From Prevotella sp. (lineage in GTDB: Bacteria; Bacteroidota; Bacteroidia; Bacteroidales; Bacteroidaceae): DNA of 33,427 nt. The stretch is taken from the NCBI GenBank assembly GCA_017442825.1, contig JAFRYZ010000027.1, forward strand, positions 1 to 33,427, written 5' to 3'. This document shows, in pieces, positions 2,516 to 33,304 of this stretch; position 1 is the stretch's first letter, and each line of letters opens with the position of its first letter. The notes under the pieces were generated by a model. That model did no database searches. It worked only from the letters and a program-made list of their open reading frames with translations, and was not told where the DNA came from. The position numbers were made by a program, and so were the translations under genes.

Positions 2516-4327
2516 ATGGAACAATTGAAACATGAATGTGGTGTGGCGATGATCTGCCTGCTGAAGCCACACGACTATTACGAACGGAAATACGGCACAC
2601 GGACCTACGGACTGAACAAGCTCTATCTGATGATGGAGAAGCAGCACAACCGAGGTCAGGAGGGGGCCGGCGTGGCATGTGTAGATATGGGTGCCCCTGC
2701 AGGCTGTGAATATATGTTCAGGGAAAGAGCTGAGGGGAAGGATGCCATCACCGAGGTGTTCAAGAAAATTGTGCCTGAGACATGGGAGGGTGCTTCGCTG
2801 TTGATGGGACACCTGCGCTACTCTACTATCGGCAAGAGTGGTCTGCAGTATGTCCATCCGTTTCTCAGACGCAACAACTGGCGTGCAAAGAACTTGTGCC
2901 TGTGTGGCAACTTCAACATGACCAACATCGATGAGATTTTCCGTTTTCTCACTGCCCAAGGACAGTCGCCACGTGTCTATGGCGATGCCTATATCACGCT
3001 CGAACTGATGGGACACCGGTTAGACCGCGAAGTGGAACGACGCTATGGCGAGGCGAAGCAGCTGGGACTGCAGGGGACCTGCATCACCGACTATATTGAC
3101 AACCACGTAGATATGGCGGACGTGCTGCGCAAGACGATGAGCCTCTACGATGGAGGATATGTCATGTGCGGATTGACGGGGAGCGGCGAGATGTTCGCCG
3201 TGCGCGACCCCTGGGGCATACGACCAGCCTACTATTATCGTGACGACGAGGTGATAGCTGTGGCCAGCGAGCGCCCCGTATTACAGACGACTTTCAATGT
3301 GCAGGCAGAGGCGGTTTGCGAACTTCAGCCTGGAAAGGCGCTGCTTGTGCACCACACGGGGGAGGAAAAGAAATGGCGGGACGAAATACGGCAAATCCTT
3401 CCGGCAGGAAAATTCAGCGCCTGCAGTTTCGAACGCATCTATTTCAGCCGAGGGTCGGACCGCGACATCTATCAGGAGAGGAAACGGTTGGGCGAACAAC
3501 TGAGTCCTGCCATCATGCAAGCCATTGGAGGAGATTTAGCCCACACCGTCTTCTCTTATATCCCTAACACCGCCGAGGTGGCTTTCCACGGCATGACGGA
3601 CGGCATACGACGGATGATGCCGCAAAGTGGCAGCCCAAGCCAAAACCACGAGCTCAGGATGGAGAAAGTGGTCTGGAAGGATATCAAACTGCGTACCTTC
3701 ATCGCTGACGACACCGAGCGCAACGACTTGGCTGCACACGTTTATGACATCACTTACGGCAGCCTGCAACCTTACGAAGACAACCTTGTCATTATAGACG
3801 ACTCCATCGTGCGCGGCACGACATTGAAAGAAAGCATCTTTAAAATGCTGGACAGGCTTCATCCAAAGAAAATCGTGATGGTATCTAGTTCGCCACAGAT
3901 TCGCTATCCCGACTACTACGGCATCGACATGTCGTGTCTGGAAGAGCTTTGCGCCTTCAGGGCTGCCATAGCACTCATCAGGGAACGGGGATGGGAACAC
4001 ATTGTCGAGGAGACTTATCGGAAATGCAAGGCTGACGCGAAGTCTGCGGCATCGCAAAGTGGCTGCCCAAGCCAAAACCACGTACGCGACATCTATGCGC
4101 CATTCTCAGTAGAGGAAATTAACGGGAAAATTGTAGAGATGCTGAGTCTAGAAGGCATGCAAACGCCCGTAGTACTGGTTTTTCAGAGCATCGAGGGGCT
4201 GCACCTTGCATGTCGCGACAATCCTGGCGACTGGTATTTCACAGGACTCTACCCTACACCTGGCGGCATAAGGATGGTGAATCAGGCATTTGTAAATTAT
4301 TACGAAGAATCTTATAATCGTATTTAG
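2516..4327 (+). CDS. Amidophosphoribosyltransferase-like protein (long Bacteroidales PurF paralogue)
   Basis: The 603-residue protein combines an N-terminal class II glutamine amidotransferase domain with a type I phosphoribosyltransferase domain, the architecture of PurF (PRPP + glutamine to 5-phosphoribosylamine). After a seven-residue propeptide (MEQLKHE) the predicted N-terminal nucleophile is Cys8 (CGVAMI). HNRGQEGAG, GHLRYST and CGNFN follow. The PRPP loop is LVIIDDSIVRGTT (residues 426-436). It is well over 100 residues longer than standard PurF and matches a long Bacteroidales paralogue, so its exact acceptor substrate is not certain. Two surface-loop insertions, residues 370-378 and 514-522, have the nearly identical sequence QSG(S/C)PSQNH, from a 30-bp DNA repeat. 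The gene starts 1 base after pyrG and ends 1 base before asnB. Confidence 0.85.
   Translation: MEQLKHECGVAMICLLKPHDYYERKYGTRTYGLNKLYLMMEKQHNRGQEGAGVACVDMGAPAGCEYMFRERAEGKDAITEVFKKIVPETWEGASLLMGHLRYSTIGKSGLQYVHPFLRRNNWRAKNLCLCGNFNMTNIDEIFRFLTAQGQSPRVYGDAYITLELMGHRLDREVERRYGEAKQLGLQGTCITDYIDNHVDMADVLRKTMSLYDGGYVMCGLTGSGEMFAVRDPWGIRPAYYYRDDEVIAVASERPVLQTTFNVQAEAVCELQPGKALLVHHTGEEKKWRDEIRQILPAGKFSACSFERIYFSRGSDRDIYQERKRLGEQLSPAIMQAIGGDLAHTVFSYIPNTAEVAFHGMTDGIRRMMPQSGSPSQNHELRMEKVVWKDIKLRTFIADDTERNDLAAHVYDITYGSLQPYEDNLVIIDDSIVRGTTLKESIFKMLDRLHPKKIVMVSSSPQIRYPDYYGIDMSCLEELCAFRAAIALIRERGWEHIVEETYRKCKADAKSAASQSGCPSQNHVRDIYAPFSVEEINGKIVEMLSLEGMQTPVVLVFQSIEGLHLACRDNPGDWYFTGLYPTPGGIRMVNQAFVNYYEESYNRI
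3621..3650 (+). repeat. 30-bp in-frame coding repeat, copy 1
   Basis: Bases 3621-3650 match 4053-4082 at 29 of 30 positions (a/t at position 12). Both copies are in the same reading frame and encode QSGSPSQNH here. The flanks are unrelated. Remembered Bacteroidales homologues are variable in sequence and length here, so this looks like a small element inserted into a permissive loop. Confidence 0.85.
4053..4082 (+). repeat. 30-bp in-frame coding repeat, copy 2
   Basis: This is the second copy of the repeat at 3621-3650, encoding QSGCPSQNH, just before the conserved RDIYAPF block of the PurF-like protein. It has one mismatch to copy 1, unrelated flanks and the same frame. The complementary strand is also open and reads VLAWAATLR in both places. 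Confidence 0.85.
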
Positions 4328-4328
4328 T

Positions 4329-6110
4329 ATGTGTGGAATCGTAGCAATATTAAACATTCGGCATCAGTCTGCTGAACTGCGCCAGAAGGCATTGAAGATG
4401 AGTAAGAAAATACGCCACCGCGGTCCTGACTGGAGTGGTATCTATGTCTCGCCTGACAAAGGGACAACGGCTGAGGAACACCAAGGGGCCATTCTGGCTC
4501 ATGAACGGTTGAGCATTGTTGACCCGGAATCGGGTGGGCAACCCCTCTATTCGCCTGACAGGAAACGGGTACTGGCTGTCAACGGCGAAATCTATAACCA
4601 TCAGGAAATACGCCGTCGCTTTGCGGGACAATATGATTTCCAGACGGGTAGCGACTGTGAGGTCATCCTTGCGCTTTACAAAGAATGGTGCGGACGGTCA
4701 CTATCCCGCGGAGAGGGTAACCGCAAAGCGCTTGACAGAGCAGGAACGGATGCCAGCACCTTCCTGGAGTCGCTCAACGGCATATTCGCCTTTGTGCTCT
4801 ACGACGAGGAAAATGGCAACTACTTGATAGCCCGCGACCCCATCGGGGTCATCCCACTCTATATCGGCTATGACAACGACGGAACGCTTTATGTCGCATC
4901 GGAACTGAAAGCGCTCGAAGGGCAGTGCAACCACTACGAACCGTTCCCACCGGGACACTACCTCCATAGTGGGATGGCAGACCTCAAACCGCAGCGTTAT
5001 TACCAACGAGACTGGTTCTCCTATGAGGCCGTAAAAGACAATAATGCTTCGGTTCATGCCATACGCGATGCCTTGAAAGCTGCTGTCCGCCGACAACTCA
5101 TGTCCGACGTGCCTTATGGGGTATTATTAAGTGGCGGCCTTGACAGCAGCATCATCTCTGCCATCGCCCAGAAGTTCAGCGAACACCGCATTGAGGACGA
5201 TAGTAAGACAAAAGCCTACTGGCCACGACTGCACTCTTTTGCCGTGGGACTGAAGGGGGCTCCCGACCTTGCGAAAGCAAGACTGGTGGCTGACCATATC
5301 GGCACTGTACATCACGAAATCAACTATACCATTCAGGAAGGATTTGATGCCATCCGCGACGTCATATACTACATCGAGACTTACGATGTTACCACCGTCC
5401 GCGCTTCTACTCCTATGTACTTGCTGGCACGTGTCATCAAGTCAATGGGCATCAAGATGGTACTATCGGGCGAAGGTGCCGATGAAATTTTCGGTGGCTA
5501 TCTCTACTTTCACAAAGCTCCGTCTGCTCGTGATTTCCACGAAGAGACGGTGCGTAAGTTGGAAAAGCTACACCTATACGACTGCCTGCGAGCAAACAAG
5601 AGTCTCTCGGCATGGGGTGTCGAGGGCCGCGTGCCTTTCCTCGACAAAGAATTTCTTGATGTTGCCATGCGTACCAATCCCGAAGCCAAGATGTGTCCAG
5701 GATCGACCATCGAGAAGAAGATTGTTCGCGAGGCTTTTGCCAACTTATTGCCTGAGGCTGTCGCATGGCGACAAAAGGAGCAATTCTCGGATGGTGTAGG
5801 TTATTCGTGGATTGACACCTTGAAGGACATCACCTCCAAAGCCGTGTCAGACGAACAGATGGCTCATGCTGCAGAACGCTTTCCCATCAATCCACCAAAG
5901 AACAAAGAGGAATACTACTATCGCAGCATTTTCGCCGAGCATTTCCCCAGCGACTCTGCAGCCCGTAGCGTTCCCTCAGAGGCCAGCGTGGCATGTTCTA
6001 CAGCCATTGCACTTGAGTGGGATGCCGCCTTTCAGGGAATGAACGACCCAAGTGGTCGGGCCGTCAAAGGCGTGCATGAGCAGGCTTATTCTAAATCGTC
6101 ATTCAAGTGA
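4329..6110 (+). CDS. asnB: Asparagine synthase B (glutamine-hydrolysing)
   Basis: AsnB makes asparagine from aspartate, ATP and glutamine-derived ammonia. The 593-residue protein begins MCGIVAIL, so Cys2 is the glutaminase nucleophile after Met removal. RHRGPDWSG, the NGEIYNH motif and the GSDCEVIL motif complete the class II amidotransferase domain. The synthetase domain carries the pyrophosphate loop LSGGLDSS (about 267-274) and LSGEGADEIFGGY (about 379-391). The C-terminal ACSTAIALEWD and DPSGRAVKGVH blocks are typical of the enzyme. Residues about 121-141 (CGRSLSRGEG...) appear as an insertion relative to what I remember of the family. The ATG lies one base after the stop of the PurF-like gene, making a tight pyrG-purF-like-asnB operon. 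The next gene converges with it after 25 bases, with no obvious terminator. Confidence 0.96.
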   Translation: MCGIVAILNIRHQSAELRQKALKMSKKIRHRGPDWSGIYVSPDKGTTAEEHQGAILAHERLSIVDPESGGQPLYSPDRKRVLAVNGEIYNHQEIRRRFAGQYDFQTGSDCEVILALYKEWCGRSLSRGEGNRKALDRAGTDASTFLESLNGIFAFVLYDEENGNYLIARDPIGVIPLYIGYDNDGTLYVASELKALEGQCNHYEPFPPGHYLHSGMADLKPQRYYQRDWFSYEAVKDNNASVHAIRDALKAAVRRQLMSDVPYGVLLSGGLDSSIISAIAQKFSEHRIEDDSKTKAYWPRLHSFAVGLKGAPDLAKARLVADHIGTVHHEINYTIQEGFDAIRDVIYYIETYDVTTVRASTPMYLLARVIKSMGIKMVLSGEGADEIFGGYLYFHKAPSARDFHEETVRKLEKLHLYDCLRANKSLSAWGVEGRVPFLDKEFLDVAMRTNPEAKMCPGSTIEKKIVREAFANLLPEAVAWRQKEQFSDGVGYSWIDTLKDITSKAVSDEQMAHAAERFPINPPKNKEEYYYRSIFAEHFPSDSAARSVPSEASVACSTAIALEWDAAFQGMNDPSGRAVKGVHEQAYSKSSFK

Positions 6111-6135: not shown

Positions 6136-6981
6136 CTATTTTTTCTTCATCTCCAACACGAGATTTCCAATCCAAATGCCGTGCTTACCATTCTGATCGA
6201 CGGGGATGAGTTTGCCGGAAGCATCTTTGACGTATTCAAGGTTCTTCAAGTAGGTGTGTGAATGTCCGCCGAGGAAGAGGTCGGTGTTGCGGGTGTGGGC
6301 AATAACATAGTTGTCGTCTTCGCCACCAAGTTTCCATCCCAGATGTGAGATACAGATAACCAGATCGCACTTCTTTTTGTTTTTCAAAAAATCGGCAGTC
6401 TCGTTAGCTACCTTCACAGGGTCGAGGTATTTCACACCGCCACACTTGTTACGGTCAACAAGTCCATCCATCTTAGGCGCAAGCCCATAGACACCGATTT
6501 TCATCCCCTTGTGTTTCAGGATGATGTAGGGCTTTACCAGTCCTTCCACGGGCGTACCGGTGAAATCGTAGTTAGCACAAACTATGGGGAATTGAGCCAT
6601 GCGGAAAAGGCGTGCCATATTATCGAGTCCGAAGTCGAACTCATGATTGCCTATGGTGGCGGCATTAACCCCCATCTGGTTCATCAGCCCCACTTCAACA
6701 TCGCCCTTATAGAGCGTATAGTAGGGAGAACCCTGAGAAAAGTCGCCGCTGTCAAAATAGAGCAGGTCGGGATCTTTCTTGCGTTCTTCCTGCAACATTA
6801 CCATGCGGCGAAGATATCCACCTCTGCCAGCAACAGACGTGTCGGCAAGGTTAGGATTCAACTGCATGATGCAACTATGAGTATCATTTGTGTGCAGAAT
6901 ATGTATCTGCTTGGTTTTCTGTGCCGATAAGGGCAACACAGCAAAAGCTGCAAACCATATCATTATAGGTATTCGTTTCAT
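6136..6981 (-). CDS. Secreted metallophosphatase, 5'-nucleotidase N-terminal domain (UshA-type)
   Basis: The 281-residue protein has a Sec signal peptide (MKRIPIMIWFAAFAVLPLSAQ). A calcineurin-like metallophosphoesterase domain follows with the full set of metal-ligand motifs: HTNDTHS, DSGDFSQGS, GNHEFDFG, SHLGW and GGHSHT. These are typical of periplasmic 5'-nucleotidase/UshA enzymes, which release phosphate from nucleotides. The C-terminal nucleotide-binding domain of UshA is absent here and is encoded by the upstream gene at 7092-7853. The pair thus reproduces a whole 5'-nucleotidase as two polypeptides. The two genes lie on the same strand 110 bases apart and are probably co-transcribed. 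Substrate could equally be a nucleotide sugar or another phosphoester. Confidence 0.9.
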   Translation of the reverse strand: MKRIPIMIWFAAFAVLPLSAQKTKQIHILHTNDTHSCIMQLNPNLADTSVAGRGGYLRRMVMLQEERKKDPDLLYFDSGDFSQGSPYYTLYKGDVEVGLMNQMGVNAATIGNHEFDFGLDNMARLFRMAQFPIVCANYDFTGTPVEGLVKPYIILKHKGMKIGVYGLAPKMDGLVDRNKCGGVKYLDPVKVANETADFLKNKKKCDLVICISHLGWKLGGEDDNYVIAHTRNTDLFLGGHSHTYLKNLEYVKDASGKLIPVDQNGKHGIWIGNLVLEMKKK

Positions 6982-7091: not shown

Positions 7092-7853
7092 TTACTCTAC
7101 CACCACACGTCCTTCGACAGAAGATTCGACGGATTTACCCGCTTTCTGCATGGCACGGAAATAGTCAATAATATAATAACGTACATTGTTTTTCTCTTCT
7201 TGCGGTGACACAAGGTCGGTAGCCGCCTTGAAAGCCACCATTTCATCGTTACCTTGCGACAGATAGTCGAGCGTGACGATGCGGTATTTTGCCTGTGGAT
7301 CTATCTCCTTGCCGTTGAGACGTGCCGACAGCAGTTTACCGTCTTTTGTAATATGCAACTGAACACCGTGACTCAATCCTTCACCACCACGATGGGCTAT
7401 CTGCTGGAACAATTCCAAGACTTTCTCACCAGTTAAGGTAAGGAAGCACACCTTGTTTTCAAATGGAGCCACATCAACAATATCGCCGTAGGTCACCTTA
7501 CCTTCGGCAAGAGCAGCTCGAATGCCTCCGATGTTATAAACAGCAAACTGCGGTTGCTCGTTGAAGAACTGTCCCGTCCACATCATAATGTCAGGAAGAA
7601 GGTTCGACAGTGGAGCTTCTGGTCGATCGGCATGGAGATAGGTTGCCGCCGTACCTACGACAGGACTCATCATACTGTCAACTTTCACTTTGAAGGGAGC
7701 GAGGAATGCTTCTGCCTGTGGTGATGGGGCATCATACTTCTTGTCAATCAAGATACGCGAACGGCTTACATTCGCCAACTGGTAATGCGACTGACACGAT
7801 GCCATCACCAACATCGCCGCTACCAGCGTGGTTAAGAGAGTCTTGCTTTTCAT
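7092..7853 (-). CDS. 5'-nucleotidase C-terminal domain lipoprotein
   Basis: The 253-residue protein begins with a lipoprotein signal, MKSKTLLTTLVAAMLVMASC, giving an acylated Cys20. The rest matches the 5'-nucleotidase C-terminal domain (PF02872 type): PEAPLSNLLPDIM, the YNIGGIRAAL core (usually N.GGIR), GDIVDVAPFENKV and a KYRIVTLDYLSQGND block that usually forms the adenine-stacking pocket. It has no metallophosphatase domain of its own. The downstream gene encodes that half, so the two likely assemble or cooperate at the outer or inner membrane surface in nucleotide salvage. This gene is first in the pair and has a Bacteroidetes -7 element upstream at 7875-7882. Confidence 0.88.
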   Translation of the reverse strand: MKSKTLLTTLVAAMLVMASCQSHYQLANVSRSRILIDKKYDAPSPQAEAFLAPFKVKVDSMMSPVVGTAATYLHADRPEAPLSNLLPDIMMWTGQFFNEQPQFAVYNIGGIRAALAEGKVTYGDIVDVAPFENKVCFLTLTGEKVLELFQQIAHRGGEGLSHGVQLHITKDGKLLSARLNGKEIDPQAKYRIVTLDYLSQGNDEMVAFKAATDLVSPQEEKNNVRYYIIDYFRAMQKAGKSVESSVEGRVVVE

Positions 7854-8775: not shown

Positions 8776-9957
8776 TTAATGGTGGAACAAGCGTACACCG
8801 GTAAACGCCATTGCAATGTCATACTTGTCACACGTTTCAATAACGTTATCGTCACGGATGCTGCCGCCAGCCTGCGCGATAAATTCCACACCACTCTTAT
8901 GTGCCCGTTCGATATTGTCACCAAAGGGGAAGAAGGCATCAGAGCCAAGTGCCACTTTTGTGTTCTTGGCAATCCAAGCTTTCTTTTCTTCTGTCGTGAA
9001 GACTTCAGGTTTCTCGGTGAAGAACTGTTGCCAAGTTCCATCACGGAGTACGTCTTCATATTCGTCACTGATGTAAACATCTATAGTGTTGTCTCGGTCG
9101 GCACGACGGATGTCATCCTTAAACGGCAGATTCATCACCTTCGGTGACTGGCGCAACCACCAGATGTCAGCTTTCTGTCCGGCAAGACGTGTACAGTGAA
9201 TGCGGCTCTGCTGACCGGCACCGATTCCGATAGCCTGTCCATCCTTGACGTAGCAGACGGAGTTCGACTGTGTATATTTCAAGGTAATCAAAGCAATAAT
9301 GAGGTCGCGACGTGCTTCGTCAGTGAAGGTCTTGTTCTTCGTGGGAATGTTTTCAAAGAGTGCAGGGTCGTCCAATTTGATTTCATTACGTCCCTGTTCG
9401 AAAGTAATACCAAACACTTGTTTGCGCTCGATGGGGTTGGGAACGTAGTCAGGATCAATCTTAATGACATTATAAGTACCTTTGCGTTTGTCCTTCAATA
9501 TCTCAATGGCTTCAGGGGTATAGTCGGGTGCTATGACACCATCGCTGACCTCGCGCTTAATGAGCGTAGCAGTAGCTGCATCGCAGGTATCGGAAAGCGC
9601 TACAAAGTCACCATAAGAACACATGCGGTCGGCACCACGGGCACGGGCGTAGGCACAAGCCAGCGGAGAGAGTTCAACCTTAACGTCATCGACAAAGTAA
9701 ATCTTTTTCAGCGTATTGCTCAACGGCAGTCCTACGGCAGCACCTGCAGGGCTGACATGCTTGAAGGAAGCTGCAGCCGGCAGACCTGTGGCTGCTTTCA
9801 GTTCTTTCACCAACTGCCATGAGTTCAATGCATCAAGGAAGTTGATATAGCCAGGACGGCCGTTGATGACTTCAATAGGTAATTCACCTTCGTCCATATA
9901 GATACGCGAAGGCTTCTGATTCGGATTGCATCCGTACTTTAATGCTAATTCTTTCAT
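8776..9957 (-). CDS. AICAR formyltransferase (free-standing PurH transformylase domain)
   Basis: The 393-residue protein corresponds to the AICAR transformylase part of bifunctional PurH. It transfers a formyl group from 10-formyl-tetrahydrofolate to AICAR, late in purine synthesis. The catalytic Lys-His pair is visible in SFKHVSPAGAA, and the conserved CSYGDFVALSD, TLKYTQSNSVCYVK, GIGAGQQSRIHCTRLA and GSDAFFPFGDNIE stretches are present. It lacks the N-terminal IMP cyclohydrolase domain, so cyclisation must be done elsewhere, for example by a separate full-length PurH. I chose the ATG at 9957 (MKELALKYGC); an in-frame upstream codon at 9981 would add eight residues. A Bacteroidetes -7 element lies at 10046-10053. 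Confidence 0.9.
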   Translation of the reverse strand: MKELALKYGCNPNQKPSRIYMDEGELPIEVINGRPGYINFLDALNSWQLVKELKAATGLPAAASFKHVSPAGAAVGLPLSNTLKKIYFVDDVKVELSPLACAYARARGADRMCSYGDFVALSDTCDAATATLIKREVSDGVIAPDYTPEAIEILKDKRKGTYNVIKIDPDYVPNPIERKQVFGITFEQGRNEIKLDDPALFENIPTKNKTFTDEARRDLIIALITLKYTQSNSVCYVKDGQAIGIGAGQQSRIHCTRLAGQKADIWWLRQSPKVMNLPFKDDIRRADRDNTIDVYISDEYEDVLRDGTWQQFFTEKPEVFTTEEKKAWIAKNTKVALGSDAFFPFGDNIERAHKSGVEFIAQAGGSIRDDNVIETCDKYDIAMAFTGVRLFHH

Positions 9958-10045
9958 ATCGTCACTTTTATATTTGCCCACAGATGTTCACAACACGATA
10001 CACAACTCCGCCTTTACGCGCGTTATGTTTTTTATATTTTGACTA

Positions 10046-10092: not shown

Positions 10093-10124
10093 TTTGGCGA
10101 AACGAAAAAAAAGGCCTAAGTTTG
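10093..10124 (+). promoter_or_regulatory. Promoter of the lipoprotein/radical SAM pair
   Basis: TTTG at 10093-10096, a 20-base spacer and TAAGTTTG at 10117-10124 match the Bacteroidetes housekeeping promoter (TTTG-N19/20-TAnnTTTG). Transcription would start near 10131, about 60 bases before the lipoprotein ATG. Confidence 0.7.
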
Positions 10125-10192: not shown

Positions 10193-10588
10193 ATGAAAAT
10201 CAAATGGCTCAACCCACTGATGCTCACCTGCCTCTCTACAGCATTCGTAGCACTTGGCTTCGGTTCCTGCAAGTCGCAAAGCAATGTCTCAAAGCAACAG
10301 CGTGCTGAACTGAAAGGGAAAATGGCTAAAATCCAGCAAGAGATTTCCGACAACCATGCGACACTGGCAAAAATGCGCTCCGACTATGAAAACATCGGGC
10401 GCGGCGAATGTGTCTATGGTGGCCCTAACATGATGCAAGAAGCTGTTTCCCGTATGCAAGAACGACAAGATAATCAGCGTTCTTACGCCCGTAAAAAGAT
10501 GAATGAGGTACAGCAGGCCATTGACAGTCTGAATCGGGAAAGAGACAAGGTTGCCACAGAGCTTGAACAGTTAGACAAGAAGAAATGA
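10193..10588 (+). CDS. Putative lipoprotein of an rSAM/lipoprotein system (TIGR04134-like)
   Basis: The 131-residue protein has a hydrophobic signal segment ending ALGFGSC, so Cys26 is the predicted acylated residue. The mature part is almost entirely charged helix with coiled-coil character: residues about 33-66 and about 80-131. A short glycine-rich turn, GRGECVYGGP (residues 69-78), separates the helices and contains the only other mature-part cysteine, Cys73. The shape suggests a helical hairpin exposing a Cys/Tyr/Gly loop. Its stop codon overlaps the start of a radical SAM/SPASM enzyme (ATGA), implying translational coupling. I recall this pairing as the TIGRFAM families TIGR04133/TIGR04134 of Bacteroidetes, whose function is not established. 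The loop could be the modified site, but that is inference. ATG 10193 is preferred over an upstream TTG at 10169. Confidence 0.8.
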   Translation: MKIKWLNPLMLTCLSTAFVALGFGSCKSQSNVSKQQRAELKGKMAKIQQEISDNHATLAKMRSDYENIGRGECVYGGPNMMQEAVSRMQERQDNQRSYARKKMNEVQQAIDSLNRERDKVATELEQLDKKK

Positions 10589-11673
10589 AATACCGCGGTC
10601 TCTCATTGAGAAAACGCTTGGGATTGGAGATACAACGGAAGATACAGCAACAACTTATTGCTGACCATCCGTTGTATCAGTTGTTTTGGGAGTGTACACT
10701 ACGATGCAACCTACATTGCCGTCATTGTGGTAGCGATTGTAAGACAGTGGCTGGGCACGACGACATGCCACTGGAAGACTTTATCCGCGTACTCGACAGT
10801 ATCGCAGCAAAAACAGATTCACGCCAAGTCTTTATTATCATCACAGGTGGAGAACCACTAGTGAGGGAAGACATCGTGGAGTGTTGCCGAGCTATCCGTG
10901 ACCATGGATTTCCGTGGGGGATGGTCACCAACGGACTATATCTTACTCCGGAACTGTTACACCAACTGGTGGATGCCGGCATGCATGCCATGACCATCAG
11001 TCTCGATGGATTAGAGGATAACCACAATTGGATGCGTGGCAACAAAGACAGTTTCCGTGCCGTTTCGGATGCCATTGACTTGTTGCGCGAAGAACCCAAC
11101 ATCGTTTGGGATATTGTAACCTGTGCCACGGAACACAATTTCAGTGAACTGCCTGCCTTGCGAGACTTTCTCATTGACAAGGGCGTACCGTCATGGCGAT
11201 TGCTCGATGTGTTCCCCGTTGGACGTGCTGCTACAACCCCCGAAGTGCTACTCAGCGACAAGCACTACCGCCAACTGTTAGAGTTTATCCGAGAGACTCG
11301 TCGCAAAGGAAGTATCCGCACGGCATACGGATGCGAAGGTTTTGTAGGCGAATTCGAATTGGACGTACGCGACTACGGCTTTTTCTGTAAGGCTGGCATC
11401 ACCGTCGGCTCCGTTCTCATCGATGGCAGCATCTCCGCCTGCTCCAGCATACGCTCTGACTACCATCAGGGCAACATCTATGAGGACGACTTCATGGACG
11501 TGTGGGAAAACCGCTTCCTACTTTATCGAGACCGGAAATGGATGCACAAGGAGGACTGTGGTGAATGCAACATGTTCCGCTATTGTAAGGGAAGTGGCAT
11601 GCATCTGCGTGACGGTGACGGAAAACTGCTGCAATGCCATGTTCAACGGCTGTTAAGGGCAGAACATCCTTAA
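10585..11673 (+). CDS. Radical SAM/SPASM enzyme of the rSAM/lipoprotein system (TIGR04133-like)
   Basis: The 362-residue enzyme has the radical SAM iron-sulfur motif CX3CX2C at Cys41, Cys45 and Cys48 (CNLHCRHC) and the SAM-binding GGEP at residues 88-91. MVTNG and ISLDG follow as expected for the partial TIM barrel. Further cysteines in the C-terminal third (YGCEGF, FFCKAG, SACSS, CGECNMFRYCKG, QCHV) fit a SPASM domain holding one or two auxiliary clusters, typical of peptide-modifying enzymes such as anaerobic sulfatase maturases. It overlaps the preceding lipoprotein gene by four bases. The obvious hypothesis is that it modifies that lipoprotein, although the enzyme is cytoplasmic and would have to act before export. 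Heme or cofactor-related SPASM enzymes are an alternative. Confidence 0.88.
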   Translation: MKYRGLSLRKRLGLEIQRKIQQQLIADHPLYQLFWECTLRCNLHCRHCGSDCKTVAGHDDMPLEDFIRVLDSIAAKTDSRQVFIIITGGEPLVREDIVECCRAIRDHGFPWGMVTNGLYLTPELLHQLVDAGMHAMTISLDGLEDNHNWMRGNKDSFRAVSDAIDLLREEPNIVWDIVTCATEHNFSELPALRDFLIDKGVPSWRLLDVFPVGRAATTPEVLLSDKHYRQLLEFIRETRRKGSIRTAYGCEGFVGEFELDVRDYGFFCKAGITVGSVLIDGSISACSSIRSDYHQGNIYEDDFMDVWENRFLLYRDRKWMHKEDCGECNMFRYCKGSGMHLRDGDGKLLQCHVQRLLRAEHP

Positions 11674-11690
11674 CCTTGTTATCAAAGAAA

Positions 11691-12518
11691 CTACTCCTTA
11701 AGCAGAATGCCGGTAAAGATACGGCCACTATTAATGCCTAAACGACGTGCTGAGAAATACTCGTCACATCGGTCATACGAACAGATGTCAGATAGTTGAA
11801 TCTGTTCTTTTTCCAATCCACAATCTATCAGCTGCAAACGATTGCATTCAGGAAGGTCAAGATGCCATCGCATAAGGTCATCTGACGTTTTTCTATCTTC
11901 TATGGACACAGAAACAGGATAATGTTGCGCTATCTTGTCCATAGGAAAATCTGCCTCACGAAATGCGTTATAGACTTCATCGCCCACTTCAAAGTTTCTC
12001 AATGAAATTCCTGGTCCAATGACAGCACGCAGCTGTTGAGGATGGGTGTGATAGATTTCTTCCATCTTCCTGACAGTCTTCACCACGATGCGAGCCACAG
12101 TACCGCGCCAACCAGCATGTACCGCAGCCATGGCATGATGAGCCTCATCATAGAGCAAGACGGGGATGCAGTCGGCAGTGGAAACACCGATACAAACACC
12201 AGGCAAGTCGGTCATCACTACATCTACACCTTCCAAGAAGGAATTGCGTTCGTCGTTAGTCAATTCATAAAAGGAAGGAGTGATAGCACGAACCTCTGTC
12301 TGATGCGTTTGATGCGGATACACCAACTGCTCATCTGTAATATGCAGCAGGTTGCACAGAGCGGAACGATTGATAGAGATAGCCTTTTCGTCATCACCAC
12401 AATAATGATTGATGTTAAAGGTTGCATAGTTACCTTCACTCACCCCACCCTGTCTGGTGGTAGTGAAAGCAACAACACCGTCACCTATTAGATATGAGTG
12501 CAAGACGGGAAGATTCAT
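11691..12518 (-). CDS. pgeF: Peptidoglycan editing factor PgeF (YfiH/laccase-domain family)
   Basis: The 275-residue protein belongs to the multicopper-polyphenol-oxidase-like DUF152/YfiH family. It has the metal-binding residues in [18 protein letters not shown] and [10 protein letters not shown], plus IGPGIS. E. coli PgeF (YfiH) keeps L-serine out of peptidoglycan stem peptides; some homologues act as purine nucleoside phosphorylases or deaminases. The ATG overlaps the obgE stop by four bases (ATGA), so the two are translationally coupled. Being in an operon with hpt and adk makes a purine role worth considering. The radical SAM gene converges with it 17 bases away with no obvious terminator between them. 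Confidence 0.87.
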
Positions 12519-21657: not shown

Positions 21658-21677
21658 CAATTGTCAATTGTCAATTT
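21658..21677. repeat. CAATTGTCAATTGTCAATTT tandem repeat overlapping a gene end
   Basis: This is a short tandem of CAATTGT units. It fills the 17-base gap between the receiver/PPDK-N gene and the aldo/keto reductase gene and overlaps the stop codon of the first. Related ATTGACAATT sequences are at 26236-26263 and, within coding sequence, 33181-33215. Confidence 0.7.
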
Positions 21678-24600
21678 AACACCACCACTCCTTCTTGTTT
21701 CTTTCCGTCCATCATGATGCACAGCGGTTTCTCAAAGCGCACGTGGCGCACGAACTCCGTCTCTGCCACAGCGGGCATATTGTCGAGCAGTTGTTTTTGA
21801 TAAACACCTTCATTTTTATATGGATTCACCGTAAAATAGCCAACACCAAACGAGGTCAGGTTTTGAAAAAAGTGTGTGCCCTGCGAAGGGTCAACACGAT
21901 AATTTTTCAGTCCTTCTTCCACGATTACACGCGCACCACTGATATGTGGCCACTTCACGGGTATCCCCAACCACGGGTCACTGCTCCCCCATCGTCCTGG
22001 TCCTATCAGCACATAGTTCTTGCCTTCAGCCAGGAACTGACGATTGATGCGCTCGATATGTTCGGCAATAGTCGGATTGTTCATGGCTGTGAAATTATCG
22101 TCGGTTTTCACATAGACCACGTCAACAACATCCTCGCTGATACCATGTCCCAACGACATGTGCGAACGCAGCAGGCAGTCCTCGTCAGCAATCGCCGAGA
22201 GGTCTTCTTCCAACACCTGCTTGGAATCAACAATCGGACGGATCTGCAACAGATACAGTTCCCCGAAGGGTTTCTCGTTATTATCTGTCGGCGGGGTGAT
22301 GTTGCAAGCAAACTCTATCTCCACCGGACGGCGCATTGCTTCTGCCCCGAACGTCATCGACATCTGCAACAACTCCGGCAATGGAACGACGCCTTGCTGC
22401 AGAACGCCACAGAAAGAGATCACCTTCCTACCACCTTCGTAGAGTCCTTCCCTGATTACTTGGTCATAAGCGTCAAAAGTAGAAGCGATATATTGTAACG
22501 GATGCTGCATAGCCCCTGTTGACTGTTCACTATCTTCCTTCCTGTTCGGTAACATAGGGAAATACTGGTCAGCTTCTTTCACCTTCAGCGTCTTGATGTT
22601 AAAGCCGTCATCCACCTTAAAATCCTCTCCCACATGTGTCATGTCCAACGCATAGAACTTCGTCTGCGTCTCTTTCAGTGCAATGTCCATTTCACTGGTC
22701 TGCAACACCTGATCTGGATGATAAGGCGACACGCGCAGCGTCTGTCCGCCATCCACAATATACTTGCCGAGTCCCAATGCCAGCGAGGCAATGCCATCCT
22801 CAGCCTTCTCGTCACCGATAGGATAATAGTTCAGCGAGCGCAGCACGCCGCTGATATTGGGATAATAGTATTCCCCATATTGGTTGCCGACGACCTCCTG
22901 CAGGATTACCGCCATCTTCTCTTGGTCAATGACGTTACTTGTCGCCATCATGTATGCTTTCGAGTCTTGATAGAACACCGACGCATATACGCCCTTGATG
23001 GCACAGGCAAGCATCCGAAGCATCGCGTCTTTGTCTTCCAGATACGGAATCATATACGTGGAATAGATGCCTGCAAAGGGTTGATAGTGCGCATCTTCGA
23101 GTAACGAAGACGAGCGGATGGCTATCGGGGCATGCGTCGCCTCAAAGAAAGCATAAAAGTCATCGATGAATGCATCCGGCAACTGTGCCCGCAGGAATTG
23201 CTGCAGTATCTCCTCGTCGCTGGCATCACTGAGTGCAATCTGGTAGAGGTTGTTCTTTTCCATGAATTCATCGAAGACATCGGTACAAAGCACCACCGTC
23301 TTCGGAATCTGCACCGTTGCGTTGGGGAACTTCTTGAAGTCAGGATGAGTCTTGATGACATGGTCAAGGAACGCCAGGCCACGCCCCTTTCCACCCAACG
23401 AGCCATCACCGATGCGGGCGAAATGTGAGAAACGGTCGAACTTCTTGCGGTCGAACACTGCCACCACGCCAATATTCTTCATGTGGCGGTACTGCACGAT
23501 GGCATCATAGATAATCTGCTTGTGCACATCCACGTCCTGCAGCTTGTGCCAAGTGATGTCTTTCAGAAATGCCGACACAGGGAAGATGGCACGTGCACAT
23601 AGCCAGCGGCTCATGTGGTTACGCGATATATGGCGCAACATGGCATCGTTGGGAATGCGGAAAATATTGTCCTGCAGTTCTTTCAGGTTGCTCACCCGCA
23701 TAATCTCCTCGTGTGTCTTCGGATCTCTGAAGATGAAATCACCGAAGCCCATGTGCTCCTCCATGATCTTATGCAGGTCGCGGTTCATCGTCTTTGAATT
23801 CTTGTCAACGAAGCGGAACCTTTCTGCCATAGCCCGTTCGCGGTTCACCGTCTCGGCACTCTGCAAGATGAGCGGCACGTACTCGTCGCGCCGGCGTATC
23901 TCCTCCAGCAACTTAAAGCCCGCCTCAGGGTCTTTGTCTGCCGATGATGCTTCGGCAGGAACGGCGTCGCCCATGGGGAATCGCACATCGCTGATAACAC
24001 CCAGCGTATTGTCGTGGTACTTCTCGTACAGCGCCATCGCCTCCTCATAGTTACGCGCCAGCACCACCTTAGGTCTTCCGCGCATGCGCAATGTGGCAGC
24101 ATGGCGGTTCAGCGCTTCGGTTGAAAAGCGCTGACTTTGCACCAACAGGTAGCTATAGAGATTGGGCAGGATAGAGGAATAGAAGCGTATGCTGTCCTCT
24201 ACCAGCAGAATCATCTGCACACCAGCCTCAGCAATGTCATGTTCGATGTTCATCTTGTCCTCTATCAGTTTGATAATCGACAGGATGAGGTTCGTATTGC
24301 CCAACCAGCAGAACACATAGTCGAAGATGCTTAGGTCCTCGTGCTCCATGCGTTTTGTGATACCGTGAGAGAAAGGCGTGAGCACCACACACGGCATCTT
24401 GGGGAACTGCGCCTTCACCCCACGTGCCACATCGAAGGCATCGTTATCCGCATTACCCGGCATACAGATGACCAAATCGATATTCGTCGTCTTCAGCACA
24501 CTCGCTGCCTCTTCTGTAGTCGATACCTGCGTAAAGGTAGGAGGATAACGCAGTCCCAGTTCCATGTATTCGTTGTAGATTTTCTCCTCAACCCGTCCGT

Positions 24601-24736
24601 CGTCTTCCAACATGAAGGCGTCATAGGGATTGGCTATAATCAGCACGTTATAGATGCGGCGCATCATCAAGTTGACAAACGACACATCTTTCAACAGGAA
24701 CTTGTTCCATTGTTGGGGTATAGGATGGCTATTCAT
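21671..24736 (-). CDS. Response-regulator / PPDK N-terminal-domain fusion protein of unknown function
   Basis: The 1021-residue cytoplasmic protein has three parts. Residues about 28-165 look like a degenerate receiver domain. Residues about 173-330 look like a complete receiver: acidic pair E180-D181, phospho-acceptor Asp250 (ISDVRFP), Ser293 and Lys312. Residues about 440-835 match the ATP-binding domain of pyruvate phosphate dikinase/PEP synthase, with GDGSLGGKGRGLAFLD (about 443-458), IAIRSSSLLED with the key Arg541, and LYLLQIRPI (about 828-835). Residues about 836-1021 are unassigned, with PGRWGSSDPW. The phosphohistidine swivel domain and PEP-binding barrel are missing, so it cannot run the normal dikinase cycle. 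A phosphotransferase under two-component control is a reasonable guess. It heads the minus-strand run that includes the putative L-galactose genes. Confidence 0.82.
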   Translation of the reverse strand: MNSHPIPQQWNKFLLKDVSFVNLMMRRIYNVLIIANPYDAFMLEDDGRVEEKIYNEYMELGLRYPPTFTQVSTTEEAASVLKTTNIDLVICMPGNADNDAFDVARGVKAQFPKMPCVVLTPFSHGITKRMEHEDLSIFDYVFCWLGNTNLILSIIKLIEDKMNIEHDIAEAGVQMILLVEDSIRFYSSILPNLYSYLLVQSQRFSTEALNRHAATLRMRGRPKVVLARNYEEAMALYEKYHDNTLGVISDVRFPMGDAVPAEASSADKDPEAGFKLLEEIRRRDEYVPLILQSAETVNRERAMAERFRFVDKNSKTMNRDLHKIMEEHMGFGDFIFRDPKTHEEIMRVSNLKELQDNIFRIPNDAMLRHISRNHMSRWLCARAIFPVSAFLKDITWHKLQDVDVHKQIIYDAIVQYRHMKNIGVVAVFDRKKFDRFSHFARIGDGSLGGKGRGLAFLDHVIKTHPDFKKFPNATVQIPKTVVLCTDVFDEFMEKNNLYQIALSDASDEEILQQFLRAQLPDAFIDDFYAFFEATHAPIAIRSSSLLEDAHYQPFAGIYSTYMIPYLEDKDAMLRMLACAIKGVYASVFYQDSKAYMMATSNVIDQEKMAVILQEVVGNQYGEYYYPNISGVLRSLNYYPIGDEKAEDGIASLALGLGKYIVDGGQTLRVSPYHPDQVLQTSEMDIALKETQTKFYALDMTHVGEDFKVDDGFNIKTLKVKEADQYFPMLPNRKEDSEQSTGAMQHPLQYIASTFDAYDQVIREGLYEGGRKVISFCGVLQQGVVPLPELLQMSMTFGAEAMRRPVEIEFACNITPPTDNNEKPFGELYLLQIRPIVDSKQVLEEDLSAIADEDCLLRSHMSLGHGISEDVVDVVYVKTDDNFTAMNNPTIAEHIERINRQFLAEGKNYVLIGPGRWGSSDPWLGIPVKWPHISGARVIVEEGLKNYRVDPSQGTHFFQNLTSFGVGYFTVNPYKNEGVYQKQLLDNMPAVAETEFVRHVRFEKPLCIMMDGKKQEGVVVLN

Positions 24737-29605: not shown

Positions 29606-32600
29606 ATGAAACAAAACTATCTATTCAAGACGTTGCTCCTGTTATTAGCTATAATGGGGGTGACAACAGTGAATGCGCAGTCCTATGACAATGAGGACTT
29701 CAGCGTCACGTGGAGCATGGCGAATGGTGACATTAGCACTGGTTCTGCATCTATAGAAGGTGTCATCGCACAAGATTCATGGTCGAAGAGCAGTAAGATT
29801 AACGTAAACTCAACTTCTGCTTATGGTGGAAACACTATTACAAAATTCGAGCCGACTGCAGACCACAACCCTAGAGTGGAAAGAAATGCAGACTACTATG
29901 TAGAATGGACATTTACACCTGCTGCTGGTTTTACCTTCACTCCGACTGGTGTATCCTTCGATGCTGTAAAATGTGGAACTGGCGATCCATCAATTGACGT
30001 TGACTTTACGGATGGAGCCGGTGTTACCGAGCAGCTTGCAACAAACACAGCCATTAATAGAGACGGTAATGGCGACCCTGCTATTAACCACTCATATACG
30101 CTCACGACCGCTAACAGTGCTTCAGGAAATGCGGTAAAACTCCGTATTTACATAGGAAAAATAAAGGTTGGCAAGCAAATTGCCTTTGGTCGGGTTGTTA
30201 TCACTGGCAAACTCAATGGTTCACTTCAGACTTACACTACCGTCTATAACCTCGCTACCGCTATCGCTGCCAATGGAAACATTGAAGGCGGAACGGGCAG
30301 TTTAGACCCGACAAGTGCCGACGAAGCTGCTAATGCTCCTCAAATCCAGGTAGATGCTACAAGCGGTAAGTTAGGAGCCAATGGCGACTGGGCACAAATC
30401 AATGAGAACACCGTTTTGACACTCCCCGGCGTTCCCGCAGGAGCTACCCTCACATTTGTACTTTACAACACTACGGCACTAACCATCAATGGTGCTGCCT
30501 ATCAGAATGGCGATACCTATTCCCCCACAAAGGACGAGAATGTGGTCATGACCTGTACAACCAGTGGCTACATCAAGACCATCACCGTTGAAGGTCCGGC
30601 ATTCGTTGAGCCTATTGCTTCCGACGGTTATACCCATACATGGTATTTCGGCAAGAGCAACGGCGCACCAGAATTCGCATTACAAGGCTCTGCCGAATAT
30701 GAATACACCGTAGATGAGAAATCACTGATCATCAACACCGACAAAGGTAAGTTGAACAATGCCAGCCGTACAGACCAGTGGTCACAGTGTAACAATGGTA
30801 CATTGTTCAAGATTCCTGTCTATGCTGGTTCCAAACTTTCTTGGGGCAGATATGCTACAGGTAGCGATGCAGGTTTCACCGTTGACGGTCAGCTGTTCAA
30901 CACCTCTTATATTGCTACCGAGGAAGGCACCGTTGAACTTACTGCTAAGGACATCAGCTACCTCAGCTATATCAAGATTGAACCTGTTGACCTTTACGAA
31001 GTCACAGGTACTGTTACCGGCGGCAGCGTAGATGGTGCCAATATGATTCTGACAGCTGCAGGCAACGGACAGGCTTACACGGCGGCTATTGCTTCTAGTG
31101 CTTTCAATGCGAAAGTTCCTGCCGACACCTATACCTTCAGCCTCAGCAATGATGTCAACTATGTTGTCAGTGCTCCAGAGAGCCAGCTCATCAATGCTGA
31201 GAACAACTCTGTTGACATCACCATCATCGAAGCTCAGCCACAGACCATAACAGGTCAGATTACCAATGCTCCTGCCGAAGCGTTTACGCTGACCTTCACC
31301 GGTGCTTCAAATACTGAGAACGTGCAGTGTGAGGCTGGTGCAACAACTTACAGCGTTACCCTCAACCCCGACACCTATACCATCAGTTCTTCTGTCGGAA
31401 CACTGTCACCCCTCTCTCAGGCAAGCTTCAAGGTGCTGAAAGACGCTGTCACCTTCAACATCTACTATCCAGAGGCTGCTGTTCCTGCTGCTACACAGCA
31501 GGAGATTACCGTTGACAAGAACGCTACCGTTGCTGCCAACGTCTATAACACCGTTACCGATGCTCTTGCTGCTGCCAAGGCTGGCAACATCTCTGCACCG
31601 GTTATTACACTGACCAGCGGTCAGACCTATCAAGAGCAGGTCATCGTCGATATGGCTAACGTTACGTTAAAGACCAGCGGCACCGAAAAAGCCACCATCA
31701 CCTGGTACTACGGCATCGGCTACACTTACTACAGCCTCGGTGAGAACGGTTACTATGACAAAGACCGCGCCAACACGCGCAACTCTATCATCATGAAGGA
31801 TCCGCAACGTTGGGGAGCTACTGTCCTCGTAACCAGGAATGGTACGAACTTCAAGGCAGAGAACATCATTTTCGAAAACAGCTTCAACCAGCGCTATACT
31901 GCAGAAGAAGTTGTTGACGGTGTTCGTCCTAACGGCGCACAACAAATTACCTACGACCGCACTCTGACTTCGGGTGAGGCTGGCTACAAGGCTGCCGATG
32001 CCAAGGACGTTACAGAGCGTGCTGCTGCCATCGGCTTCGAAAACAATCCGACCGGCATTCAGCTTTACAATTGTACTTTCATTGGTTCGCAGGATACCTT
32101 CTACAGCAGCGGTACCATCTACGTGAAGAACTGTAACATCGTAGGTAACACCGACTACATCTTCGGTGGAGGATTTGTTGTATTCGACAAATGCGACCTG
32201 ACCATTGGCGGCTACAGCGACAAAAAGACCAGCGCTTACATCACTGCCTATAAGGATGGTACTACACTCGATGCCAACAAGAAGTATGTCTTCCGCGACT
32301 GTACCGTCAAGAAGAGTGACCGCCAATATATACTTGCCAACTTCGGACGCGACTGGGGTGGTGCTGCTTCCAGCGTTTACTTCTTCAACCTGAAGAATGA
32401 GATTGGCAACGCCCTCGAATATCATTGGCAAGACATGTCTGCAAACGGCTCTATCTCTCAGGGTACAGCCGACCTGCACATCTACGACTTCGATCCGGCC
32501 ATCAACGCCAACTACAACACGACCGGCAAGACGGGTGCCAACGTTAACGGAGTACTCACCGACGAAGTTGCCCTTGATGTCTATGCTAACGTCATTGCAA

Positions 32601-33304
32601 AACTTGGCTTCACTCCCGAGCGTATCTACGAAGACGCAGTAGAACTCGACGAGAACAGCTTCTACAACATCTGCCGCATCGCTGCCAGCGACAATGCAGA
32701 CAGAGATGTCACCGTAGCACGCACCATCGGTGCCAACAAGTGGAATACACTGGTAGTACCGTTCAACATGTCTGAGGCACAAGTGAAGGCAGCCTTCGGC
32801 AACAATGTCAAGGTGGCTAACTTCAAGGAAGGAAATGCCGAGGAAGTTGTATTCCAAACGGCTTCGGAGATTGTTGCAAATCAACCTTGCATGATCTTCG
32901 TTGAAGATGACGTTCAGGAATTCAATGCAACAGGTGTAACCTTTGCCAATGCAGAACCTGTTCAGACTATCGGCGACTGGCAGTTCGCAGGAAGCTATCA
33001 GCCTGAAAACGACATCCCTGTCAATGCCTTCTTCGTTGCAAACAACGAATGGCAGAAAGCTGAAGACGACACCAACAAGTTCCGTGCTACACGCGCGTAC
33101 CTTAATTATAATGGTGCATCAGCTGCCAAGATTAGCTTCAGAGTCATCGATGGTGACGAGGAAATCGCTACAGGCATCAATTCAATTGACAATGGACAAT
33201 CCACAATTGACAATGATGCTCCCGCTTACAACCTCGCAGGCCAGAAGGTCGGCAAAGGCTACAAGGGAGTCATGATTCAGAATGGCAAGAAAGTAGTAAA
33301 ATAA
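29606..33304 (+). CDS. Large secreted pectinesterase (CE8) with N-terminal beta domains and C-terminal anchoring tail
   Basis: The 1232-residue protein starts with a signal peptide (FKTLLLLLAIMGVTTVNAQ). Residues about 26-620 contain several beta-rich domains with no catalytic motif that I recognise. A pectin methylesterase (CE8, beta-helix) domain follows at about residues 625-965, with the catalytic-site motifs GSQDTFY (about 826-832), GNTDYIFGG (about 846-854) and FGRDWGG (about 911-917). It would remove methyl esters from homogalacturonan. Residues about 1030-1170 form another beta domain common in Prevotella surface proteins. The tail PAYNLAGQKVGKGYKGVMIQNGKKVVK resembles C-terminal sorting or anchoring tails. 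The linker before it is made from ATTGACAAT-type repeat DNA. It has its own promoter and is the last gene in the window. Confidence 0.9.
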   Translation: MKQNYLFKTLLLLLAIMGVTTVNAQSYDNEDFSVTWSMANGDISTGSASIEGVIAQDSWSKSSKINVNSTSAYGGNTITKFEPTADHNPRVERNADYYVEWTFTPAAGFTFTPTGVSFDAVKCGTGDPSIDVDFTDGAGVTEQLATNTAINRDGNGDPAINHSYTLTTANSASGNAVKLRIYIGKIKVGKQIAFGRVVITGKLNGSLQTYTTVYNLATAIAANGNIEGGTGSLDPTSADEAANAPQIQVDATSGKLGANGDWAQINENTVLTLPGVPAGATLTFVLYNTTALTINGAAYQNGDTYSPTKDENVVMTCTTSGYIKTITVEGPAFVEPIASDGYTHTWYFGKSNGAPEFALQGSAEYEYTVDEKSLIINTDKGKLNNASRTDQWSQCNNGTLFKIPVYAGSKLSWGRYATGSDAGFTVDGQLFNTSYIATEEGTVELTAKDISYLSYIKIEPVDLYEVTGTVTGGSVDGANMILTAAGNGQAYTAAIASSAFNAKVPADTYTFSLSNDVNYVVSAPESQLINAENNSVDITIIEAQPQTITGQITNAPAEAFTLTFTGASNTENVQCEAGATTYSVTLNPDTYTISSSVGTLSPLSQASFKVLKDAVTFNIYYPEAAVPAATQQEITVDKNATVAANVYNTVTDALAAAKAGNISAPVITLTSGQTYQEQVIVDMANVTLKTSGTEKATITWYYGIGYTYYSLGENGYYDKDRANTRNSIIMKDPQRWGATVLVTRNGTNFKAENIIFENSFNQRYTAEEVVDGVRPNGAQQITYDRTLTSGEAGYKAADAKDVTERAAAIGFENNPTGIQLYNCTFIGSQDTFYSSGTIYVKNCNIVGNTDYIFGGGFVVFDKCDLTIGGYSDKKTSAYITAYKDGTTLDANKKYVFRDCTVKKSDRQYILANFGRDWGGAASSVYFFNLKNEIGNALEYHWQDMSANGSISQGTADLHIYDFDPAINANYNTTGKTGANVNGVLTDEVALDVYANVIAKLGFTPERIYEDAVELDENSFYNICRIAASDNADRDVTVARTIGANKWNTLVVPFNMSEAQVKAAFGNNVKVANFKEGNAEEVVFQTASEIVANQPCMIFVEDDVQEFNATGVTFANAEPVQTIGDWQFAGSYQPENDIPVNAFFVANNEWQKAEDDTNKFRATRAYLNYNGASAAKISFRVIDGDEEIATGINSIDNGQSTIDNDAPAYNLAGQKVGKGYKGVMIQNGKKVVK
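33181..33215 (+). repeat. ATTGACAAT repeats translated as the linker of the pectinesterase
   Basis: Bases 33181-33215 contain TTGACAAT, TGGACAAT and TTGACAAT units, read as SIDNGQSTIDND. The same motif family appears in intergenic DNA at 21658-21677 and 26236-26263. A repetitive non-coding element seems to have been taken into the coding sequence. Confidence 0.7.

Follow-up and report, generated by a model that had tools for sequence, protein, structure and literature searches.

The lipoprotein and radical SAM gene pair

In the window, i.e. the whole stretch of 33,427 nucleotides that was analysed, a lipoprotein gene and a gene for a radical SAM/SPASM enzyme lie side by side on the forward strand. 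The pair, already described in an initial annotation of this DNA, is real: the open reading frames at 10193-10588 and 10585-11673 overlap as ATGA, the stop codon of the lipoprotein overlapping the start codon of the enzyme at 10585. Because the neighbouring long open reading frames (8776-9981 and 11691-12518) both lie on the minus strand, the operon is seen as consisting of these two genes only. Its features are the following.

10093..10124, + strand: Bacteroides-type promoter-like element TTTG-N20-TAAGTTTG; pattern match, consensus only
10193..10588, + strand: lipoprotein gene, 131 aa, proposed substrate; from ATG at 10193 to TGA at 10588, adjoining the enzyme gene
10193..10270, + strand: signal peptide ending in LGFGSC, with lipobox Cys26; from the sequence, an LGx{1,4}C ending being frequent in partner proteins
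10397..10435, + strand: loop GRGECVYGGPNMM, aa 69-81; best-kept part among the closest pairs
10412..10420, + strand: putative splice site Val74-Tyr75-Gly76, the XYG of XYGxP; from motif statistics and the XYG motif of PMC10533398
10585..11673, + strand: TIGR04133 radical SAM/SPASM enzyme gene, 362 aa; NCBIfam 541.3 bits, Pfam Radical_SAM and SPASM
10705..10728, + strand: radical SAM cluster motif C41-X3-C45-X2-C48; from the sequence and a 107-sequence alignment
11332..11637, + strand: SPASM auxiliary cluster cysteines C250 to C351; from the same alignment
11652..11674, + strand: terminator-like hairpin ending the operon; consensus only, 4 in the region against 2.5 expected

The pair had been placed under one clear promoter. 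A promoter-like TTTG-N20-TAAGTTTG, which we take to be the Bacteroides promoter consensus, is present; the loose pattern occurs three more times in the window, and it is therefore regarded as a consensus match only.

The signal peptide of the lipoprotein ends in a lipobox (...LGFGSC26) and the mature protein starts with CKSQSNVS. Translation of the open reading frame confirmed that, besides the lipid-bearing Cys26, Cys73 is the sole cysteine of the mature part. It lies within GRGECVYGGP (aa 69-78), in a loop that plausibly joins two long charged helices, as predicted from the sequence. No Pfam or NCBIfam family was found above its cut-off for this protein; among the matches listed, those to SMC, DivIC and similar proteins all stayed under their cut-offs and were set aside as coiled-coil noise. 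The initial annotation had named TIGR04134 for the lipoprotein, which could not be upheld: the protein gives no match to this model (cut-off 39.8). In its own genome, which is 79% complete, neither a TIGR04134 protein nor a second copy of the lipoprotein was found.

Acidic residues behind the lipid-bearing cysteine mark lipoproteins that are exported to the surface. Since no acidic run follows this cysteine in CKSQSNVS, we would place the lipoprotein facing the periplasm rather than the outside, contrary to the cell-surface position suggested earlier.

In the case of the enzyme, the family number given earlier proved correct, with 541.3 bits against TIGR04133 (rSAM_w_lipo; curated cut-off 425) over 349 of 350 model positions; both family models, TIGR04133 and TIGR04134, carry the type hypothetical equivalog. 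The CX3CX2C motif and the cysteine-rich C-terminus were likewise borne out: across 107 aligned sequences, window included, C45 and C48 are present in 100% and C41 in 99%, while C250, C268, C286, C325, C328, C334 and C351 are each at least 99% conserved. One copy of the enzyme was found in the window's own 79%-complete genome. Counting this genome in each figure, the model was above cut-off in 2/296 genomes spread across the phylum, and hits of E 1e-80 or better were obtained for the enzyme in 116/399 genomes of the family, which we infer to be Bacteroidaceae, and in 75/299 genomes of the genus. Among the up to 80 loci listed, the named relatives belong to Prevotella, Alistipes, Paludibacteraceae, Prolixibacteraceae, Marinifilaceae and others, mostly as metagenome bins. 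Plasmid records that hold a relative come from Phocaeicola massiliensis, Parabacteroides distasonis and Treponema saccharophilum.

A YGxP motif in the proteins beside related enzymes

The motif YG.P was first noticed among the open reading frames flanking 106 distinct enzymes, namely 105 from the 121 family rows (15 were left out and one was the window) and one from the phylum-wide search. Of 81 own-genus rows, 70 were taken in and 10 left out, the last one again being the window. A locus was counted when YG.P occurred in a same-strand open reading frame of at least 35 aa, no more than 700 bp from the enzyme. In a set of named loci, from which the truncated L206 (39%) was left out (L153 was not used either), the motif was found beside the enzyme in 44/54 loci, compared to 1/25 loci of other radical SAM enzymes given the same treatment and 6/54 when the opposite strand of the named loci was read. 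Combined, 123/160 loci carry it (shuffled-protein expectation 11.5), 106 of the 160 being the ones in which the motif was first noticed. It was found in 56/70 own-genus loci (4.3 expected) and in 3/3 plasmid records. Because named and earlier loci sometimes look identical, these partly overlapping sets (L201/L113, L177/L116, L207/L302, L208/L238 and L155/L258 look alike) are not fully independent. In viral contigs the best enzyme match reached 35%, and no YG.P partner was seen in the two of 50 that were scanned (L307, L308).

The co-occurrence of enzyme and partner, set as a test in the initial annotation, is strong but not universal, as YG.P was absent within 700 bp at 37/160 combined and 14/70 own-genus loci. 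Some of these show near variants (CYGPAP, VYGPRP, MYGVRPP). Ten of the 37 lie downstream of a gene encoding IIIDEYGSLRGIVT or a near copy (L098, L104, L105, L129-L132, L134-L136), with no YG.P partner nearby; this gene encodes a CNNM/CBS membrane protein by Pfam in L129 and by the common stretch in the other loci. At others nothing was seen. A separate observation concerns a 469-493 aa upstream protein with a conserved KRDDxVYGRPYI (L113, L116, L117, L120, L122, L123, L125, L127), which may be a chance match or a further target. As a conserved stretch of that protein, the KRDDxVYGRP match was left out of the 160-locus count; it was kept in the 54-locus count, where it is the sole basis for scoring L177 as positive.

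The scaffolds that carry the motif are unrelated. They include TIGR04134-like beta-sandwich lipoproteins, helical lipoproteins resembling that of the window, 60-95 aa lipoproteins made of little but motifs, and soluble-looking proteins (L119, L124, L126). In 176 distinct contexts the tyrosine is mostly preceded by M (35%), E (22%), L (12%), V (10%), K (6%), I (5%) or C (5%), and the residue after the glycine is mostly T (28%), V (18%), P (16%), G (9%) or S (8%). Several sites can occur within one protein: L126 has four, and L069, L075, L167 and L208 have more than one. In L167, a longer relative, the hairpin is repeated and carries the two sites TVYGTPEVM and CVYGSPEVI. Apart from the motif, a signal peptide ending in LGx(1-4)C was found in 82/122 partner proteins against 1/30 other lipoprotein-like open reading frames, both sets being pattern-picked and the control set of 30 small and noisy. 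The LGFGSC-type signal peptide of the window may serve as a leader for the enzyme.

Some partners are of interest in their own right. In L192-L197, L200, L204, L205 and L358 (2613-3002, Treponema saccharophilum) the apparent lipobox cysteine itself precedes YG, as AC-YG-xP or SC-YG-MP; in these proteins the lipid-bearing cysteine would be the X of XYG. In L126 the enzyme is flanked by a protein of 189 aa that looks soluble and carries four sites, VYGGPP/VYGPPV (4173-4739), and, on its other side, by a Ser/Thr kinase-FKBP fusion (1072-2979). Single open frames of enzyme and TIGR04134-like lipoprotein occur in L074 (533 aa, enzyme first) and L054 (506 aa, lipoprotein first) and are either natural fusions or sequence errors.

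The closest enzymes found, L287 and L288, are 75% and 78% identical to that of the window and each has a lipoprotein directly upstream; L288 has a second one, about 430 bp upstream. The three lipoproteins were first pulled by the motif pattern, the first of each locus being re-confirmed by position alone, and their loops (aa 67-82) are 81, 69 and 69% identical to that of the window, compared to 60, 56 and 44% for the signal peptide, 29, 20 and 10% for the first helix and 41, 24 and 4% for the second. Leaving out Y75, G76 and P78, the loop still keeps 10, 8 and 8 of 13 residues (62-77%), so the expectation that the loop is the best conserved part of the lipoprotein is supported in these closest pairs. 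For the third-closest enzyme (L295, 69% identical) no such partner was found in the available stretch. Taking by position alone the open reading frame directly upstream of the 16 closest enzymes (of 124 loci), two pairs of which look identical, YG.P was present in 12 and CYGPAP in 2, while 2 had no such frame; one of the latter, L262, has a YG.P partner downstream. An alignment of the lipoprotein with seven relatives gave C26, R70, Y75, G76 and P78 as invariant columns; because these relatives were picked by a motif-containing pattern, the invariance of Y, G and P is circular. An alignment of 13 helical partners suffers from the same selection and was not used.

TIGR04134 offers a way around this circularity, since its members are searched by their own model and the motif is thereby kept separate from the choice of sequences. 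It was found above cut-off in 51/399 family genomes, 46 of which also have the enzyme (chance about 8e-23). Among the 61 hits, YG.P is present in 55/56 from enzyme-bearing genomes, compared to 1/5 from genomes where the enzyme was not found (p 5e-5). L143, the single hit that keeps the motif although no enzyme was found, precedes a masked stretch that could contain the enzyme. L147, which has lost the motif despite an enzyme in the genome, is a second copy, far from the enzyme. Of the four hits with neither motif nor enzyme, that in L146 is a protein of 613 aa, barely above cut-off. Between the same flanking genes, L152 has both enzyme and motif (...RCEYGTPYAK..., the lipoprotein frame breaking off after 63 aa, past the motif), whereas L142 (...SENCTSYAK...) and L144 (...ENYAEHT...) have neither. 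In L145, EYGTP reads EHGTP, so that only the tyrosine is missing, in a genome where no enzyme was found. The lipoproteins of L148 and L149 retain the motif although they lie distant from the enzyme of the same genome. TIGR04134 lipoproteins beside the enzyme resemble the window pair in having xYGxP after the lipid-bearing cysteine, while the window lipoprotein differs in being charged, probably helical and without similarity to TIGR04134.

Spliceases and the proposed reaction

Altogether, the XYGxP motif is well supported as the probable modified site. What stands of the earlier interpretation is a TIGR04133 enzyme beside a substrate-like lipoprotein with the loop as the likely place of modification; the TIGR04134 assignment falls away, a Cys cross-link is unlikely and the cell-surface position finds no support. 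XYG tyramine splicing, a more specific reading, does not figure in that interpretation.

Among the known systems closest to the pair are the PlpXY spliceases. As published, these excise tyramine at X-Y-G and close the chain again, a loss of C8H9NO that is printed as 135.0757 (PMC10533398) and that we compute as 135.068. The natural PlpX sites are MYG and LYG, the engineering tag PIRPLYGLPI contains LYGLP, and another tested tag, GYGVV, lacks the proline there (PMC10533398). PlpX belongs to IPR026482 as a radical SAM/SPASM enzyme, and its partner PlpY is a truncated RRE (PMC11002830); a precursor can be spliced at several sites (PMC10373908), and the spliceotide products are termed protease inhibitors (PMC11117315). 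The window pair shares with this system a SPASM radical SAM enzyme and an XYG site (VYG at aa 74-76), and its family shares the multi-site precursors and a motif of the kind contained, as LYGLP, in the minimal tag. It differs in several respects. X is valine in the window, compared to the Met and Leu of the natural sites named in PMC10533398. Neither a Nif11 nor a nitrile-hydratase-type leader is among the NCBIfam and Pfam matches listed for the lipoprotein (for Pfam the best 25 of 32), and the presumed TIGR04133 substrates are mostly signal-peptide lipoproteins. An RRE partner was not found in the operon itself, and the PqqD model gave no match above its cut-off across the genome, which is 79% complete, PlpY itself being a truncated RRE. 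Finally, the window enzyme is not a member of TIGR04103, with 112 bits against a cut-off of 725, and it reaches 113 bits with TIGR03913, both behind the NirJ2, TIGR04053 and AhbD models. This order of scores, the RRE search that found nothing and the 37/160 loci without YG.P speak against the splicease reading.

We take TIGR04103 to be the same family as IPR026482. In a tree of 32 sequences, covering few families and no PlpX, TIGR04133 groups with TIGR04103/TIGR03913-like enzymes, apart from NirJ2 and AhbD, with a support of 93/93 that is below the programme's strong mark and with long branches flagged. Five residues, chosen post hoc from all columns (E36, L120, W204, G252, S288), are common to TIGR04133 (16-17/17) and the TIGR04103/TIGR03913-like enzymes (5/5) and occur in 0-2/10 of the others. 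These signatures and the tree give moderate support to a relationship of TIGR04133 with the splicease branch. L154 groups with TIGR04133 in the tree; its enzyme scores 526 bits with TIGR03913 (cut-off 592) and 417 bits with TIGR04103 (cut-off 725), below both, and is outscored by L004 to L009 against TIGR04133. Alongside it lie two tiny XYG precursors, with PYG and LYG. L154 is nearest to the GDL-motif peptide maturases of TIGR03913 and to TIGR04103, and its precursors differ from the lipoproteins in being small and soluble with the motif at the extreme N-terminus; one of them matches DUF1843.

From these observations we propose, with fair confidence, that the pair consists of substrate and enzyme and that the TIGR04133 enzyme splices the lipoprotein at V74-Y75-G76 in the manner of PlpX. 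Firstly, the enzyme would bind the lipoprotein precursor while it is still cytoplasmic, perhaps using the LGFGSC-type signal peptide as leader. Secondly, it would act at Val74-Tyr75-Gly76 of the YGxP loop by splicease-type radical chemistry. The modified lipoprotein would then be exported and lipidated, giving a small membrane lipoprotein whose hairpin would bear an electrophilic ketoamide at its tip. The variety of partners suggests an enzyme that edits, at YGxP, the backbone of lipoproteins which are unrelated apart from this motif. The system would work like a splicease system; both splicing as the reaction and the splicease identity are drawn by analogy.

The motif evidence identifies a site and not a chemistry, and a different reaction at YGxP, such as a C-C or ether cross-link of Tyr75 to a neighbour, oxidation at Gly76 or side-chain cleavage at Tyr75, has to be weighed, although we regard it as rather unlikely. 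A precedent exists in the mycofactocin maturase, MftC, likewise a radical SAM enzyme with a Val-Tyr pair as its target; it decarboxylates the tyrosine and links it to the adjacent valine (PMC8326336). The window differs from it in that its Val-Tyr pair is internal and its enzyme is only a distant match to the model, with 102 bits. MftC acts at the C-terminus of its peptide. Against a cross-link speaks the residue at +2, which can be glycine, as in the window, and then has no side chain to link; moreover, -2 is highly variable and -1 is M, E, L, V, K, I or C in 95% of the 176 contexts. Varied residues at -2 and -1 are the pattern expected for XYG splicing. As Y, G and P define the search pattern, they are themselves uninformative on the type of reaction.

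It is improbable that YGxP acts as a docking tag, the modified residue lying elsewhere in each partner. The very different scaffolds, in which the signal-peptide end is the only other common feature seen, would fit such a role, but the partners in L208 and L069 hold little beyond repeated motifs, and a motif present in several copies is more readily explained by several target sites than by several docking points.

The initial annotation had favoured Cys73, joined to Tyr or Gly in a cross-linked or oxidised surface lipoprotein. Cys73 attracts attention as the only mature-part cysteine besides the lipid anchor, and cysteine does take the column two before Tyr (-1 being X) in 18% of the 176 contexts. 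In most other contexts this position holds Val, Leu, Ala, Asp or Thr, and in the L287 lipoprotein it is Thr. Because the loop cysteine is not conserved, it was dropped as the key residue and a Cys-Tyr cross-link is unlikely; as no surface-export signal was seen either, we consider this explanation very improbable. Least credible is an enzyme that makes a heme-like small molecule, as NirJ2 and AhbD do, with the lipoprotein merely binding the product: NirJ2 (137 bits), TIGR04053 (128) and AhbD (125) are the next-best NCBIfam models for the window enzyme, but NirJ2 and AhbD sequences lie outside the TIGR04133 group in the tree and the partners share YGxP despite unrelated folds.

Returning to splicing at V74-Y75-G76, a lipid-anchored hairpin with a ketoamide would keep an electrophile at the envelope and, by analogy with the spliceotides, be suited to protease inhibition or to covalent capture of nucleophiles. 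Only tentatively do we extend this to a set of chemically armed lipoproteins throughout the envelope of gut and rumen bacteria, including one lineage in which the lipid-bearing cysteine is itself X (AC-YG-TP); this may well prove wrong.

Significance and further genes of the window

TIGR04133 and TIGR04134 are already named families whose names give neither a reaction nor a site; what is added here is the shared XYGxP site. In the literature searched, no paper with TIGR04133 or TIGR04134 was found, and none of the listed titles and abstract openings (20 of 37) concerned their pairing. The splicease survey of Scott et al. (Chem 2022), on ‘peptides and proteins’, could list pairs of this kind already. 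With the shared site named, what was ‘function unknown’ comes down to a single mass-spectrometry question. If splicing is true, backbone-edited proteins with reactive ketoamides would be common in this family and genus, given the enzyme in 116/399 and 75/299 of their genomes. There would then also be splicease variants with no RRE gene seen adjacent and with short XYGxP sites in larger proteins, and such variants would be useful for protein labelling.

Elsewhere in the window, several other genes were noted. On the minus strand, a 5'-nucleotidase is split over two genes (6136-6981 and 7092-7853), of which one encodes a metallophosphatase domain and the other a lipoprotein-like protein that carries the 5'-nucleotidase C-terminal domain. 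Also on the minus strand, 21671-24736 encodes a 1021-aa protein with a PPDK-type ATP-binding domain at residues 446-848; the long N-terminal region ahead of this domain gave no Pfam match at E 1e-4. On the plus strand, 29606-33304 encodes a secreted-looking protein of 1232 aa whose sole Pfam match is pectinesterase, at residues ~807-925.
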